Assembly (NCBI RefSeq): GCF_900177805.1
Contig: NZ_FXAX01000001.1
Location: 248,001 to 312,000, forward strand
Direction of reading: 5' to 3'
DNA length: 64,000 nucleotides
DNA from: Fibrobacter sp. UWB13
GTDB taxonomy: Bacteria; Fibrobacterota; Fibrobacteria; Fibrobacterales; Fibrobacteraceae
A model generated the notes under the pieces. The model did no database searches, was not told the origin of the DNA, and worked only from the letters and a program-made list of their open reading frames with translations. Position 1 is the stretch's first letter, and each line of letters begins with the position of its first letter. Positions 27,973 through 33,410 of this stretch are shown here, in pieces. Position numbers and translations under genes: made by a program.

Positions 27973-28725
27973 TTACTTGCCGGCGATTTCTTTGGCTTTT
28001 GCTTCGATGGCGGCGATGGCTTTTGCGCGGCCTTCGGCGGTATCTTCGTTGGCAAGCACGATGTTCACGAACACGGAACCTGCGACCACAGCGTACACGT
28101 GCTTTGAAAGCACCTTGGACTGTTCGCCGTTGCGGATGCCGAAGCCGCCGAGAACTTTGGCGCCGTGCTTACCGACCGTGTCGATAAAGTCGAGTGTTGC
28201 CTGGTCAATGGTGGTTTCGCTTCCGGTTGTACCTGCGCGAAGGGCGGCGTAGATGTACTTGAAACCGGCTGAAGCCATTGTTTCAAGGCGTTCCTTGGTC
28301 ATGCTGGGTGCTGCCACCGGGATGTTTTCGAGTCCGTGCTTCTTGCAAGCTTCGGTGAGACCTTCATCATGGTCGAATGGCAAGTCCGGAATGATGCAGG
28401 CGGAAACGCCCGCGTCCTTGCACATCTTGACGAAGTTTTCGACGCCCGGCGTAAAGGCGAGGGAGCCGTAAGTCATGATGTAAATCGGCGTCTCGGGGTG
28501 ACGTTCGTGAATCTGCTTCACGATGGCAAGGCCCTGCTTGGTAGAATAGCCTTTTTCGAGAGCGATGGTGGATGCCGTCTGGATGGCGGGACCGTCGGCG
28601 CTAGGGTCGCTGAAGGCAAGTTGGATTTCAAGGATGTTGGCGCCACCCTTCACAAGTGCGTCGGCGATGGCGATAGAAGTTTCAGCGTCAGGAAAACCCG
28701 CAATAAGATGAGACATTAAATTCAT
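27973..28725 (-). CDS. trpA: Tryptophan synthase alpha chain
   Basis: 250 residues from the ATG at 28725, chosen because AAGGAAG lies upstream at good spacing, 5 nt after the trpB stop. It cleaves indole-3-glycerol phosphate to indole. Catalytic Glu and Asp are in LEIQLAFSDPSADGP; other motifs are YIMTYGSLAF, PDLPFDHDEGL and KVLGGFGIRNGEQ. The N-terminus (MNLMSHLIAGFPDAETS) is about 15-20 residues shorter than E. coli TrpA and lacks its first helix. Confidence 0.95.
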   Translation of the reverse strand: MNLMSHLIAGFPDAETSIAIADALVKGGANILEIQLAFSDPSADGPAIQTASTIALEKGYSTKQGLAIVKQIHERHPETPIYIMTYGSLAFTPGVENFVKMCKDAGVSACIIPDLPFDHDEGLTEACKKHGLENIPVAAPSMTKERLETMASAGFKYIYAALRAGTTGSETTIDQATLDFIDTVGKHGAKVLGGFGIRNGEQSKVLSKHVYAVVAGSVFVNIVLANEDTAEGRAKAIAAIEAKAKEIAGK

Positions 28726-28730
28726 GGTGA

Positions 28731-30008
28731 TTACTTCCTTGTCATAATTTCGGCGTCGTGGATGTCTTCGTTGTTTTCGAGGCGAACAAGTTCGGCCTTG
28801 AGGAATTCCTTCCACTTTTCGGGGCGGAACACGGGGCTCGTGATAAAGATGTCCTTGTCGCCGCGGCCACTCATGTTGATGACGAGAGCCTTGTCCTTCG
28901 GGAGCTCCTTCGCAATTTTCATAGCGGCGGCGCCGGCGTGAGCGCTTTCGAGGGCGAACAAAATCCCTTCGTTACGTGCAAAGAACTTGACGGCTTCAAG
29001 AGCTTCCTTGTCGAGAATTGCCGTGAATTCCACGCGGCCAGATTCGCCGAGGGCGGCGAGCTGCGGGCCGATTCCCATGTAGTCGAGGCCTGCGGAAATG
29101 GAGCGCGTCGGCATAGATTGACCGTCTTCGTCAATGAGGAAACGGCTCTTGTAACCCTGCACGATGCCTTCGCGGCTGGCGTTACCCGTCATGCGGGCTG
29201 CGTTTTCGCCAACGTTCGGGCCAACGCCACCGGCTTCTGCACCAATCAAACGCACGTTCGCATCGTTGATAAACGGCGTGAACACGCCGATGGAATTGCT
29301 ACCGCCTCCGACGCAAGCGACAACGGCAGCAATGTCGATGTTGCGTTCTGCGGCCTGGCGCTTGACTTCTTCACCGATAATCGACTGGAAGGTACGAACG
29401 ATATCCGGGAACGGGGCTGGGCCGAGTGCGGAACCAAGCACGTAATGAGTGTTTTTGAAATTCGTGGCCCAGTCGCGCATGGCTTCGTTCACGGCATCCT
29501 TGAGCGTGCGGCTACCGCTCGTGACCGGAACGACCTTTGCACCGTACATTTCCATGGTGGCCACGTTCGGCTGCTGGCGGCGCACATCGACTTCTCCCAT
29601 GTACACCACGCATTCGAGGCCGAGCTTTGCGCAAGCGGCGGCAGTGGCGAGCCCGTGCTGACCGGCGCCTGTTTCGGCGATGATGCGGGTCTTGCCCATC
29701 TTCTTGGCCAAAAGGCACTGACCGATAGCGTTGTTGATCTTGTGGGCACCCGTGTTGGCGAGACCTTCGAGTTTGATGTAAATCTGCGCACCGCCCAAAA
29801 GCTTGGTTGCTGTCGGAGCGAAGTACAGCGGAGTTTCGCGGCCAATGTAGTCGCGCTGGATGATGCGGAGTTCTTCGAGGAATTCCGGATCGTGGATGTA
29901 CTTGTTGAATGCCGCTTCGAGGTCGTCGAGCGGGCGGCGGATGATTTCGGCAACGTACTTGCCGCCGAACTTGTCAAAAAAACCGTTGTTAGAAGTTGTA
30001 GAGGTCAT
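28731..30008 (-). CDS. trpB: Tryptophan synthase beta chain
   Basis: 425 residues. It joins indole and serine using PLP. The PLP lysine is in GAHKINNAIGQCLLAK, the phosphate-binding loop in CVGGGSNSIGVF, and RETPLYFAPTATKL and GAGQHGLATA are also present. It is the first structural gene after the trp attenuator and is followed by trpA. Confidence 0.97.
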   Translation of the reverse strand: MTSTTSNNGFFDKFGGKYVAEIIRRPLDDLEAAFNKYIHDPEFLEELRIIQRDYIGRETPLYFAPTATKLLGGAQIYIKLEGLANTGAHKINNAIGQCLLAKKMGKTRIIAETGAGQHGLATAAACAKLGLECVVYMGEVDVRRQQPNVATMEMYGAKVVPVTSGSRTLKDAVNEAMRDWATNFKNTHYVLGSALGPAPFPDIVRTFQSIIGEEVKRQAAERNIDIAAVVACVGGGSNSIGVFTPFINDANVRLIGAEAGGVGPNVGENAARMTGNASREGIVQGYKSRFLIDEDGQSMPTRSISAGLDYMGIGPQLAALGESGRVEFTAILDKEALEAVKFFARNEGILFALESAHAGAAAMKIAKELPKDKALVINMSGRGDKDIFITSPVFRPEKWKEFLKAELVRLENNEDIHDAEIMTRK

Positions 30009-30016
30009 TGTTGTTC

Positions 30017-30060
30017 TGTCATCCTGAGCGATGGGCGGAGCCCGAAGTCGAAGGATCTAG
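30017..30060. repeat. Dispersed repeat copy (TGTCATCCTGAGC...GAAGGATCTAG)
   Basis: Lies between the trp terminator and the trpB start. Ends tgtcatcctgagcg and gtcgaaggatctag; nearly the same ends occur at 41022-41060. Confidence 0.7.
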
Positions 30061-30110
30061 TTAAGGGTTAAAGTCTCTATGCCTGCTGAGGCGCTGCGAG
30101 TCCAGAAACC

Positions 30111-30143
30111 AAAAAAATCGGCTTCCGGAGAGTCCCGAAAGCC
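30111..30143 (-). terminator. trp attenuator terminator (3:4 hairpin)
   Basis: Nine-bp stem GGCTTTCGG / CCGGAAGCC (one G-T pair), loop GACTCT, then GATTTTTTT. Its 5' part, GGGACTCT, is exactly complementary to AGAGTCC in the preceding 1:2 hairpin, so an antiterminator can compete with it. Confidence 0.88.
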
Positions 30144-30179
30144 TTTTACAAACACTTGATGAAATCAGCAAACCGGACT

Positions 30180-30236
30180 CTATTTCGTAGAGCCCCACCA
30201 CCAACGGTTGAAACGGATTACTGCGTTCATCTTCAT
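30180..30236 (-). CDS. trpL: trp leader peptide
   Basis: An 18-codon frame, MKMNAVIRFNRWWWGSTK, with three consecutive Trp codons (30195-30203) just before a hairpin (GGGCTCTA / TAGAGTCC) that includes the stop codon, then the terminator at 30111-30143. This is the classical attenuation layout: stalling at the Trp codons would free AGAGTCC to pair with GGACTCT and prevent termination before trpBA. The first ATG lies about 7 nt from the -10 box, so the transcript may be leaderless or start at the second ATG. Confidence 0.88.
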   Translation of the reverse strand: MKMNAVIRFNRWWWGSTK

Positions 30237-30242
30237 ACTATA

Positions 30243-30271
30243 AATGTAGGAATGGTAATTTAATTTGGCAA
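30243..30271 (-). promoter_or_regulatory. Promoter of the trp leader
   Basis: TTGCCA (30266-30271), 17-bp spacer, TACATT (30243-30248), reading on the minus strand directly into trpL. It lies in and just before the 3' end of the upstream lipoprotein gene region. Confidence 0.65.
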
Positions 30272-30280
30272 GGGGTGGTT

Positions 30281-31435
30281 TTATTTTTTCTTGCCTTCGA
30301 GGTATTCCGTGATTTTGGGGACCATCAGCGACTTGCGGCTGATTTTTTCGGCGGAGAAGTAAACGCCTTCGCTGAAAAGTTCTCCGAATGCACTTTCGGC
30401 GATTTTTTTAGCGGTGGCTTCGTAATCGCCTGTAGCGTAGATGATGGTGTAGGAGCCCGATTCGATGAACGGTGTTTCGGCCGCGGTCTCCGGATCCGGA
30501 TTCGGGTCGTGTCCGTCAACCTTGGCAAAGAGAATGTCGCGCTTCTTTTCTTTGGCAATTTCGGGCATCACGGCGGCGAGACGTTTAAAGAAATCCTTCT
30601 TGGTCGAATCGACATACCAGTCGTTGCTTGCGATTCCGATTTTGACGCCTTCGATTTCGTAATCCTTGTAGTCGGAGAGGAAAATTTCTTTGTCCGTCAT
30701 GCCGTAGTAATCGTGCGACGCATCGTCCATTTCGCGGGAGAGCTTGGCGACGCTATCGGGGGAAAGCTTGAGCTGTTCGATGAGGCTTTTCCATGCAGAC
30801 GAATCTAAAGTCGAGGATGCAACTTTGGTCAAGTTGCGCGTGTCAGAAAGGATGCCCGCCAAAAGAATCTTGGCCATGTCGTTATCGATTTTGACGTCGG
30901 CCTTTTTGTAGAGATCCCAAATGATGGTGCAGGCGGAACCGATAATTTGACGGTTCACGTAAGTGTCGGAGGTGACTTTTTCATCAAGGTCGCCAGGAAT
31001 GTGGTGGTCGATAATCTGGAGAATCTTAGCCTCTTTGACACCTTCGACGGATTGCGCGGATTCGGCGTGGTCGGTGAGGATGAGACGCGTACCGGCTTTT
31101 ACGGATTTCATTTCCTCGGGAACTTTGAAACCGAATTTTTCGACAATGTAGGCGGTCTCTCGGTTGATGGGGCTTACGATTTTGGCTACGGCGTTGTGGC
31201 CCAAGGCGCGCATGAGCGCAGCGTAACTCATAGCCGAAGTGACGGCATCGACATCAGGAGTCTTGTGCCCGATGACAAATGTGGTGTCGGAACCCCAGTC
31301 CAAGGCGTTGACGGTGTTTTTGAATTCTTCTCCTTCGTTGTTTGAGTCAGAAGAAGTGCTGTCGCCGCAAGCGCAAAGAAGTGCACTTGAGAGACAAACG
31401 GAAAGAATGTTGTTGAAAATAGTTTGTTTGTTCAT
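30281..31435 (-). CDS. DHH-family phosphoesterase, family II pyrophosphatase-like, lipid-anchored
   Basis: 384 residues from the ATG at 31435, chosen because it begins a lipoprotein signal (lipobox LLCAC). The body matches family II (manganese) inorganic pyrophosphatase: FVIGHKTPDVDAV, LTDHAES, IIDHHIPGD, GILSDTRNL, and near the C-terminus the substrate-binding ISRKSLMVPK. The DHH domain is about 45-240 and DHHA2 about 245-380. Family II pyrophosphatases are normally cytoplasmic, so an exported lipoprotein form is odd. It lies between two copies of a trp-type leader. Confidence 0.82.
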   Translation of the reverse strand: MNKQTIFNNILSVCLSSALLCACGDSTSSDSNNEGEEFKNTVNALDWGSDTTFVIGHKTPDVDAVTSAMSYAALMRALGHNAVAKIVSPINRETAYIVEKFGFKVPEEMKSVKAGTRLILTDHAESAQSVEGVKEAKILQIIDHHIPGDLDEKVTSDTYVNRQIIGSACTIIWDLYKKADVKIDNDMAKILLAGILSDTRNLTKVASSTLDSSAWKSLIEQLKLSPDSVAKLSREMDDASHDYYGMTDKEIFLSDYKDYEIEGVKIGIASNDWYVDSTKKDFFKRLAAVMPEIAKEKKRDILFAKVDGHDPNPDPETAAETPFIESGSYTIIYATGDYEATAKKIAESAFGELFSEGVYFSAEKISRKSLMVPKITEYLEGKKK

Positions 31436-31499: not shown

Positions 31500-31660
31500 G
31501 CAGAGGCGCTGCAAAATGAAGATGCAAAAAAATAGGCTTCCGGCACATTCCGGAAGCCATTGAATCAAACACTTGATGAAACCAGTGAATCCGTTCCGTT
31601 TTACGGGAACCCCTCCCGCAAGCGGTCTGAGTGGATTACCGATTTCACCTTTACGTATAT
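31500..31660 (-). ncRNA. Trp-less paralog of the trp leader
   Basis: This stretch aligns with the trp leader (30085-30240): shared GTAATCC, ACCGYT, TTTCATCAAGTGTTTG, the terminator, and GCAGCGCCTC beyond it. Where trpL has TGGTGGTGG this copy reads TTGCGGGAGGGG, so no Trp codons remain; the aligned frame would start GTG at 31648 and stop at a TAA after 15 codons. A promoter lies directly upstream and the lipoprotein gene directly downstream. It may be a decayed duplicate or a leader that senses another signal. Confidence 0.7.
31526..31558 (-). terminator. Terminator of the second trp-type leader
   Basis: Perfect stem GGCTTCCGG / CCGGAAGCC with loop AATGTG, followed by TATTTTTTT on the minus strand; nearly the same hairpin as the trp attenuator. 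It lies about 90 nt before the lipoprotein start. Confidence 0.85.
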
Positions 31661-31661
31661 C

Positions 31662-31690
31662 AATATACACTGTAATTCGTTGATTGTCAA
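31662..31690 (-). promoter_or_regulatory. Sigma70-type promoter of the second leader
   Basis: TTGACA (31685-31690), exactly 17-bp spacer, TATATT (31662-31667): a near-consensus promoter reading into the leader and the pyrophosphatase-like gene. Confidence 0.8.
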
Positions 31691-31745
31691 TAGGTTACGA
31701 TAGCTTTTTTGTAAATTTTTGGTACGATTTTAGTGCGGTATAGAA

Positions 31746-31796: not shown

Positions 31797-33410
31797 CTAT
31801 TTTGCAGCGAATTCCGCAAACAGCGCTTTCATCTTGTCATGATTCTTGATTCCGGGGGCGTCTTCGATGCCGCTAGATACGTCGATGAGTTCGGGGTGGA
31901 ACTTTTCGCAGATTGTGGCGACATTTTCTGGATTGATGCCGCCGGCGAGCCAGAGCGGGGCTCCGTTTGCTTTTTCGCGGAGGAGCGATTCGGGGATGGT
32001 CTTGCCGGTGCCGCCGGGGATGCCTTCGACCTTGGCGTCCAGCAAAATGCGGGGTTCGCCGTTTTTGCGGAGGCTTGCGACGTAATCGAAGTCTTCGGGG
32101 GCGCCTACGCATGCTGCGCAGTAGTAGGGGAGGGCTGCGCTGCAAGATTCCGCGAGTGCGTCGGAATTGTGCGGATCAACGCCGTGGAATTGTACGGCGT
32201 CGAGCACGCCTTCTTGGGCGAGCTTGATGGCTGTTTTGCCTTCGACGGAATTGGGGTCGGTAATCACGCCAACGAGTAGTGGTTCGACAGGCTCACCAAC
32301 CTTATTTAGGTTCCTGAGCTTGTCGAAGGGCTCAGGATGACACGTGCGGATTTTTGCGGCGAAGTTTCGCACGAATTCTTCGGTGGTGAGTCTCTTGGTG
32401 GTGCTGAACACGAAACCGAGCATGTCGGCGCCGAGTTCGGCGGCGAGGAGACCGTCTTCTTCACGTGTGATGCCGCAGATTTTCACGAGCGGGCGGCGCG
32501 CATCTTGTGGGCGCGCATCTTGTGATGAGGCTGCGCGAGTCTCGTTGTTGGCAAACTTGCGTTCGGCGAATTTCTTCCAGAACTGTCCACGGGCGTTTTC
32601 GCATCCGCTTTCGAATGCGCTGACCACGTCTTTGGCGAGCGGCGGATTCTTGGCGACGGCTTCACCGACGAGAATTCCCGTGAATCCGAGATTGCGGGCG
32701 TATGTCGCATCGGCGGCGCTCAGAATGCCAGATTCAAAAACGGCTTTGGCGGGGAGCTTGCTGCGAACGCTTGCGGGAATCAGCGGGTCCGTGTGGAATG
32801 TGGCGAGGTCGCGGGAATTGACGCCAGCAACGATCGTCTTGGCGGCTGCATCACCGAGAGCGGCTGTCACAACGGCAAGCTTGCGGAAATCGTCAGCTTC
32901 GCGGACTTCAACGAATGCCTGAATGCCGAACTTCTGAGCACGCTGTGCCATTTTCACGAGCTGTTCGTCGTCGAGGATGCGGGCGATGAGTAATACGGCA
33001 TCGGCGCCACAGCGGTAAGCGATATCGATTTCGTCTTCGAATAAAAGGAAATCTTTGCGGAGAACAGCGCACGTGTGCAAACCTTGCTGACGGCGGCGTT
33101 CCATCAAGTCCGCTACGGCAATCAAGTCACGCAGCGAACCCTTGAAAAAGTTCATTTCGGTCAGCACGGAGACCGCTTGAGCGTGTGCTTCGGCGTAAGT
33201 CGTGGCGAGTTCCACCGGATTTAAGTCAGGTGCGATGTCTCCCTTGGATGGCGAAGCCCTCTTGACCTCAAGGATGGCTCCTGCGTTACCCAAAAATTCA
33301 GTATGACCAACGCGACGCGCCTCGGGAATATCAATGTTGAAATTCAGTCCAAGTCTATCGATGTCTTCGCGGCGCATCCGCACGATTTTTTGCAAAATAT
33401 CTTCGCTCAT
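31797..33410 (-). CDS. trpCF: Fused indole-3-glycerol phosphate synthase / phosphoribosylanthranilate isomerase
   Basis: 537 residues. Residues about 1-260 are TrpC, with catalytic Lys in LEVKRASPSKGD, VLRKDFLLF, VGVNSRDLATF-like AGVNSRDL, and FESGILSAAD. Residues about 312-537 are TrpF, with catalytic Cys in LVKICGITREEDG and the C-terminal phosphate-binding LIDVSSGIEDAPGIKNHDK. Together they convert phosphoribosyl-anthranilate to indole-3-glycerol phosphate. The TrpF half contains an extra segment of about 22 residues (CHPEPFDKLRNLNKVGEPVE) encoded by a dispersed palindromic repeat at 32283-32343 that keeps the frame open. A linker with SSQDARPQDARR joins the halves. Confidence 0.95.
   Translation of the reverse strand: MSEDILQKIVRMRREDIDRLGLNFNIDIPEARRVGHTEFLGNAGAILEVKRASPSKGDIAPDLNPVELATTYAEAHAQAVSVLTEMNFFKGSLRDLIAVADLMERRRQQGLHTCAVLRKDFLLFEDEIDIAYRCGADAVLLIARILDDEQLVKMAQRAQKFGIQAFVEVREADDFRKLAVVTAALGDAAAKTIVAGVNSRDLATFHTDPLIPASVRSKLPAKAVFESGILSAADATYARNLGFTGILVGEAVAKNPPLAKDVVSAFESGCENARGQFWKKFAERKFANNETRAASSQDARPQDARRPLVKICGITREEDGLLAAELGADMLGFVFSTTKRLTTEEFVRNFAAKIRTCHPEPFDKLRNLNKVGEPVEPLLVGVITDPNSVEGKTAIKLAQEGVLDAVQFHGVDPHNSDALAESCSAALPYYCAACVGAPEDFDYVASLRKNGEPRILLDAKVEGIPGGTGKTIPESLLREKANGAPLWLAGGINPENVATICEKFHPELIDVSSGIEDAPGIKNHDKMKALFAEFAAK
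32283..32343. repeat. Palindromic repeat inserted in frame inside trpF
   Basis: Arms ttcgacaggctca (32283-32295) and tgagcttgtcgaa (32315-32327) form a 13-bp inverted repeat with one mismatch, followed by ggctcaggatgaca. The same unit is intergenic at 36432-36476. Confidence 0.85.

Follow-up and report, generated by a model that had tools for sequence, protein, structure and literature searches.

In Sinorhizobium meliloti, the terminated trpL RNA, rnTrpL, acts in trans and destabilises trpDC mRNA, and its 5' end starts with the ATG of trpL (PMC7298713). OmrA and OmrB are a duplicated pair of small RNAs (sRNAs), both trans-acting (PMC12692685). The element described below lies near the tryptophan synthase genes of Fibrobacter sp. 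UWB13 and recalls each of these systems in some respects.

The origin of bacterial small RNA genes is poorly documented, and to our knowledge little is known of RNA regulation in the phylum of Fibrobacter. Here, we describe a comparative analysis of an element, called leader2 throughout, at positions 31500-31690 of a Fibrobacter sp. UWB13 window (the whole stretch of DNA analysed, 64,000 nucleotides of contig NZ_FXAX01000001.1). We present evidence that leader2 descends from the attenuator of the neighbouring trpBA genes, has shed the tryptophan sensor, and has kept a conserved RNA fold together with a sequence motif that is also found in its parent.

Results

leader2 and the trpL attenuator are diverged paralogues

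Reading and alignment of the minus strand show that 31500-31690 and the trpL attenuator at 30085-30271 are paralogues that have diverged. The gene order on that strand is trpCF, leader2 (31690-31526), a gene for a pyrophosphatase-like lipoprotein (31435-30281), trpL (30271-30112), trpB and trpA. The features are as follows.

31797..33410, minus strand: trpCF, upstream neighbour of leader2 here; other genomes have other genes there
31672..31698, unstranded: dyad-symmetric operator-like element GTAACCTATTGACAATCAACGAATTAC over the -35 region, core TAA-N4-TTG-N5-CAA-N4-TTA
31662..31690, minus strand: leader2 promoter TTGACA-17-TATATT, from sequence; -35 at 31685-31690, -10 at 31662-31667
31526..31655, minus strand: predicted leader2 RNA, ~130 nt, its start placed from the -10 and its end from the terminator
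31633..31649, minus strand: 5' arm of the long stem P1 (GGUGAAAUCGGUAAUCC), from folding in every copy and covariation
31593..31632, minus strand: P1 apical region, with hairpin(s) of variable sequence and with TTGCGGGAGGGG where trpL has its Trp codons, from alignment and folding
31575..31592, minus strand: 3' arm of P1 (GGAUUCACUGGUUUCAUC), from folding and covariation
31566..31578, minus strand: CAUCAAGUGUUUG, end of P1 and the single-stranded linker, common to trpL, from genome search and, in all genomes, co-occurrence with the copy in trpL
31526..31558, minus strand: leader2 intrinsic terminator, stem GGCTTCCGGaatgtgCCGGAAGCC then a T run, from sequence; present in every copy, with variable sequence
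30281..31435, minus strand: lipoprotein DHH-DHHA2 (pyrophosphatase-like) gene, an accessory insertion between leader2 and trpL, from Pfam and presence or absence
30112..30271, minus strand: trpL, parental ribosome-type attenuator before trpB; promoter 30243-30271, motif 30149-30161, terminator stem 30120-30143
30180-30236, minus strand: trpL leader ORF (MKMNAVIRFNRWWWGSTK), beginning directly after the -10
28731..30008, minus strand: trpB, the gene led by trpL, Pfam among the evidence
~27973-28725, minus strand: trpA, after trpB, read from the sequence

Judged by its sequence, trpL is a classical attenuator, in which a hairpin (GGGCUCU/AGAGUCC) follows the leader ORF and AGAGUCC can alternatively pair with GGACUCU in the terminator. 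The leader2 promoter stands in the register of the trpL promoter (TTGCCA-17-TACATT), the two having position and spacing in common but not sequence; TTTCATCAAGTGTTTG is the same in both elements, and TGGTGGTGGGGC of trpL has given way to TTGCGGGAGGGG. Realignment thus confirms the original prediction that the two elements correspond in promoter spacing, TTTCATCAAGTGTTTG and terminator and that the stretch of Trp codons has been replaced. The prediction had carried the alignment beyond the terminators as well; the sequence in question, GCAGCGCCTC, is indeed present, but it follows leader2 and trpL only in a few close relatives and therefore lies outside the conserved element.

When leader2 was compared by BLAST with the whole 3.8-Mb genome, trpL was the second-best match (E 2.9e-8), and profile E-values were ~1e-14 to 1e-15. 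Exactly two occurrences of CATCAAGTGTTTR exist in the genome, one in leader2 and one in trpL. Together these results place the similarity well above chance. The 13-mer CAUCAAGUGUUUG is likewise confined in this genome to the two elements, which are also all that an RNA covariance model found in it.

Two other features of the trp loci were noted. The interval 30015-30060, between trpL and trpB, resembles a dispersed intergenic repeat (TCATCCTGAGCG..GAAGTCGAAGGATCTA). The trpE operon of this genome has its own WW leader/attenuator (MMNFVTSATMNRRWWRGL; L253, G000:C1 ~329000-329700) with a P1-like enclosing stem, a feature that the trp leaders of Fibrobacter may have in common; a link between leader2 and the trpE leader was considered and rejected, the stem there being of different sequence and no motif being shared.

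The tryptophan sensor is missing from leader2

A covariance search located leader2 in 49 of 80 Fibrobacter genomes, as a single copy except in G006, which has two; beyond trpL and one borderline match the RNA model gave nothing else in the 80 genomes. In a coding test on 49 aligned copies, the position of the trpL start codon was never ATG, tandem Trp codons (WW) were absent throughout and no conserved peptide was found, the residual frame ranging from 2 to 48 residues with frameshifts and stops. Some copies contain a frame of 15-21 amino acids, and peptide coding was rejected on the lack of a conserved frame among the 49. Nor was an antiterminator detected in leader2, where pairing between the 5' arm of the terminator and upstream sequence was about that of shuffled sequences (mean z -0.49, compared with -2.30 for trpL). 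leader2 has retained an intrinsic terminator, present in every copy, and lacks the other three features that define an attenuator, namely leader peptide, Trp codons and antiterminator. It should not be classed as an attenuator.

In G095 (L107, ~2560), trpL is without ~50 bp including the -10 and start codon and leader2 is intact; this is either a real deletion or an assembly error.

The fold and parts of the sequence are conserved

Pairwise variation was computed over 42 leader2 copies. The yardstick was trpB of these genomes, whose fourfold sites differ by 0.38 (38%). The -10 is invariant (0.00) and the -35 varies by 5% (0.05). Inside the RNA, TTTCATC shows no variation (0.00), AAGTGTTT varies by 0.03 and the 5' stem base by 0.08; the terminator is free to vary in sequence (0.41). 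The long closing stem P1 forms in every copy (~-25 to -35 kcal/mol) and is followed by single-stranded AAGUGUUU, which is also retained. In alignment A2, 98.2% of the cells pair, and two-sided changes that keep a pair number 47, against 15.1 in shuffles (0 of 500 as high) and at most 9 in slid structures; the pairs scored come mainly from P1, those of the apical region being less certain since two sequence types differ there.

The comparison among genomes shows that purifying selection maintains leader2 in 49 or more Fibrobacter genomes, and that leader2 is a constrained noncoding RNA, with a promoter of its own, which derives from trpL and is incapable of attenuation of the usual kind. The loss of start codon and Trp codons, and the short frames of some copies, might be read as the marks of a non-functional relic or of a small-protein gene. 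Purifying selection and covariation, and the interruption of the frames by stops and frameshifts, make either reading scarcely credible. That leader2 is no dead copy had been proposed at the outset; the random decay in relatives that would contradict this was not found in the 49 genomes, in which the element is conserved and covaries.

leader2 accompanies trpL and trpB across the genus

Wherever both leaders are readable, they share a strand and leader2 is the upstream one. The arrangement could be counted in 45 genomes with both elements readable: in 30 leader2 abuts the trpL promoter, with no gene between and only ~10-70 bp from its end to the -35 region of trpL, and in 15 other genes intervene. 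Both leader2 and its motif are retained where 1.2-3 kb of intervening genes, some on the opposite strand, precede trpL. The gene on the upstream side also varies (trpCF, a symporter-like gene or unrelated genes). Because intervening and upstream genes vary in this way, the fixed companion of leader2 is trpL-trpB and not the pyrophosphatase.

The original prediction had offered two roles for the element, one of which was control of the pyrophosphatase-like lipoprotein gene. That gene does follow leader2 here and in about ten relatives, and in the G003 group its ATG comes directly after the leader2 terminator. It is, however, one of several insertions: 30 genomes have leader2 right before trpL with no such gene, other genes substitute for it elsewhere, leader2 stays beside trpL-trpBA with or without it, and no antiterminator was detected. 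We regard this role as very improbable. The other role, that of a small RNA, is preferable in light of conservation, covariation and the lack of a conserved peptide and of an antitermination switch.

As to the interval itself, it is a variable cargo site that may be empty or hold one or two pyrophosphatase-like genes, opposite-strand lipoprotein genes, or combinations of these (L088, L089, L092, L120, L111, L093, L113). The DHH-DHHA2 pyrophosphatase-like gene, whose lipobox was read from the sequence, is patchy across the genus and sometimes tandem (30281-31435 here; L005/L014 in G006; L150 in G019), and its product is apparently an exported lipoprotein of the pyrophosphatase type.

As leader2 and trpL are closely linked in most genomes, a role in cis is conceivable, in which leader2 would be an upstream promoter and terminator in tandem with trpL. 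It would then work through insulation, through interference between promoters or through regulated readthrough, and its RNA would have no function in trans. The constant strand and order of the two elements, and the short spacing in 30 of 45 genomes, are as such a role would have it. It is nevertheless rather unlikely in our estimation: leader2 is retained with 1.2-3 kb of genes, including opposite-strand genes, in between; it has no antitermination switch; and a cis role leaves unexplained why the RNA fold and AAGUGUUU are conserved and why trpL has the motif in common with leader2. Action in trans is favoured by the persistence of leader2 and motif across such intervening genes and by the free change of the upstream genes.

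leader2 and trpL have a motif in common

The stem base and linker, UUUCAUCAAGUGUUU, are the same in leader2 and the adjoining trpL, except that a few genomes differ by a single base. The core of this motif, CATCAAGTGYTT, occurs in 47 of 47 trpL leaders where leader2 is present. Where leader2 is absent, none of 14 Trp leaders (13 at trpB and one at trpCF) has the core, and these read, for example, CATCAAGAGATTTG, CATCAAAACGTTTG or CAACAAATAGTTTTG at the site. Extra trp leaders before trpCF in G055 and G079, both of which have leader2, lack the core, and attenuation therefore does not need the motif. A Trp-codon leader immediately before trpCF was seen in some genomes (L101 in G018, L130 in G055 and L143 in G079).

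In a trpBA tree, the genomes that lack leader2 nest within those bearing it, and in an rpoB tree they fall in two separate places inside the leader2-bearing genomes; this nesting fits a joint loss of leader2 and the trpL motif. The same altered motif in G012, G042, G083 and G089 suggests transfer of the locus, so that independent co-losses may number as few as one, and shared ancestry weakens the evidence from co-occurrence.

P1 base and linker are the sole parts identical in the two RNAs, whose apical parts vary freely. This, and the want of the motif in trpL where leader2 is absent, are as expected if leader2 were a decoy, a sponge for an RNA-binding factor that targets the P1 base and AUCAAGUGUUU of trpL. 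Such a decoy, a specific form of the explanation preferred below, is possible rather than probable; the two RNAs might instead share a base-pairing target. The exact complement of the motif, AAACACTTGAT, occurred at chance level beyond both leaders in 16 genomes, with no recurring site that could be a base-pairing target.

Alternatively, trpBA attenuation might be altered by pairing between the 5' P1 arm of leader2 and the 3' P1 arm of trpL. The cross duplex has a mean energy of -20.4 kcal/mol, about that of P1 in each RNA alone (-21.5 and -20.6). Any paralogue sharing the stem would be expected to form such a duplex, however; its energy is no better within than between genomes, there is no signal of leader2-trpL co-evolution, and P1 of leader2 is closed, with no obvious toehold. 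Strand exchange of this kind therefore seems unlikely.

A dyad-symmetric element covers the -35 region of leader2

The leader2 -35 lies at the centre of a 25-bp dyad-symmetric element, TAA-N4-TTG-N5-CAA-N4-TTA. Across 49 copies TAA, TTG and CAA never vary and TTA hardly does. Forms flanked by G or C occur among the copies in both orientations (GTAA..TTAC and CTAA..TTAG). The whole genome contains 7 sites with one mismatch, against 0 in reversed-pattern controls. The dyad is absent from trpL, and the leader2 site is the single match in the window. Sites include a divergent intergenic region beside a MKFVFLCDANYLKGD.. gene in several species. leader2 has what resembles the operator of a dimeric regulator.

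Across the genus, each genome has ~4-13 sites of the palindrome (G/C)TAA-N4-TTGA-N3-TCAA-N4-TTA(G/C), which often lies between divergent genes (L329, L336, L347 and others) and is likely the operator of a regulator.

Discussion

The explanation that we consider best, and on balance probable, is that leader2 is a dedicated small noncoding RNA gene, a duplicate of trpL with its own promoter, acting in trans via the partner of the terminated trpL RNA. To judge from its sequence, leader2 has what is expected of an sRNA gene: promoter, terminator, conserved fold and no coding potential. Its transcription, its partner and its target are inferred. The trpL attenuator would have been duplicated beside trpBA to give leader2, which would be transcribed as an RNA of ~130 nt that always terminates, with its output set by a regulator at the -35 dyad and not by tryptophan. 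The RNA might then act in trans via the P1 base and AUCAAGUGUUU, the feature still exactly common to the terminated trpL RNA, so that both RNAs could meet the same partner, whether an RNA-binding protein, a nuclease or a target RNA. By mimicking the action of the terminated trpL RNA, or by competing with trpL for the partner, leader2 could tune trpBA. A broader proposal, which we hold with slightly less than even confidence, is that of a genus-wide sRNA family that arose from a trp attenuator by shedding the sensor and gaining an operator, acts in trans on a partner shared with the terminated trpL RNA, and gives the tryptophan synthase genes a second, tryptophan-independent input.

If so, leader2 may show the birth of a new RNA regulator from an old RNA switch. 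Parent and offspring adjoin in dozens of genomes, with offspring-less genomes nested among them, and the parts retained or dropped in each copy hint at what an RNA needs for a new task. The 15-mer common to both RNAs provides a direct handle in the search for an RNA partner.

No family in Rfam 15 matches leader2 at the gathering score, lax E-values giving only chance-level matches, and we found no report of a leader2-type element in Fibrobacter in the literature. We would class leader2 as a candidate for a new family of sRNA genes in Fibrobacter, derived from an attenuator. It has in common with the ribosome-dependent trp attenuator, represented by the neighbouring trpL, its ancestry, P1, UUUCAUCAAGUGUUU, promoter spacing and terminator position, but it is without leader peptide, control codons and alternative terminator pairing. 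The nearest known analogue is rnTrpL/peTrpL of S. meliloti. Like rnTrpL, leader2 is homologous to a terminated amino-acid leader RNA. However, the S. meliloti sRNA is none other than the trpL transcript after attenuation, with the leader peptide encoded in it (PMC7298713), whereas leader2 is a separate gene beside an intact trpL, with its own promoter and dyad and without start codon, Trp codons or antiterminator. As with OmrA and OmrB, two homologous RNAs have sequence in common and differ in expression, a difference that is predicted in our case; unlike that pair, one of the two copies in Fibrobacter, trpL, is still a cis attenuator (PMC12692685).
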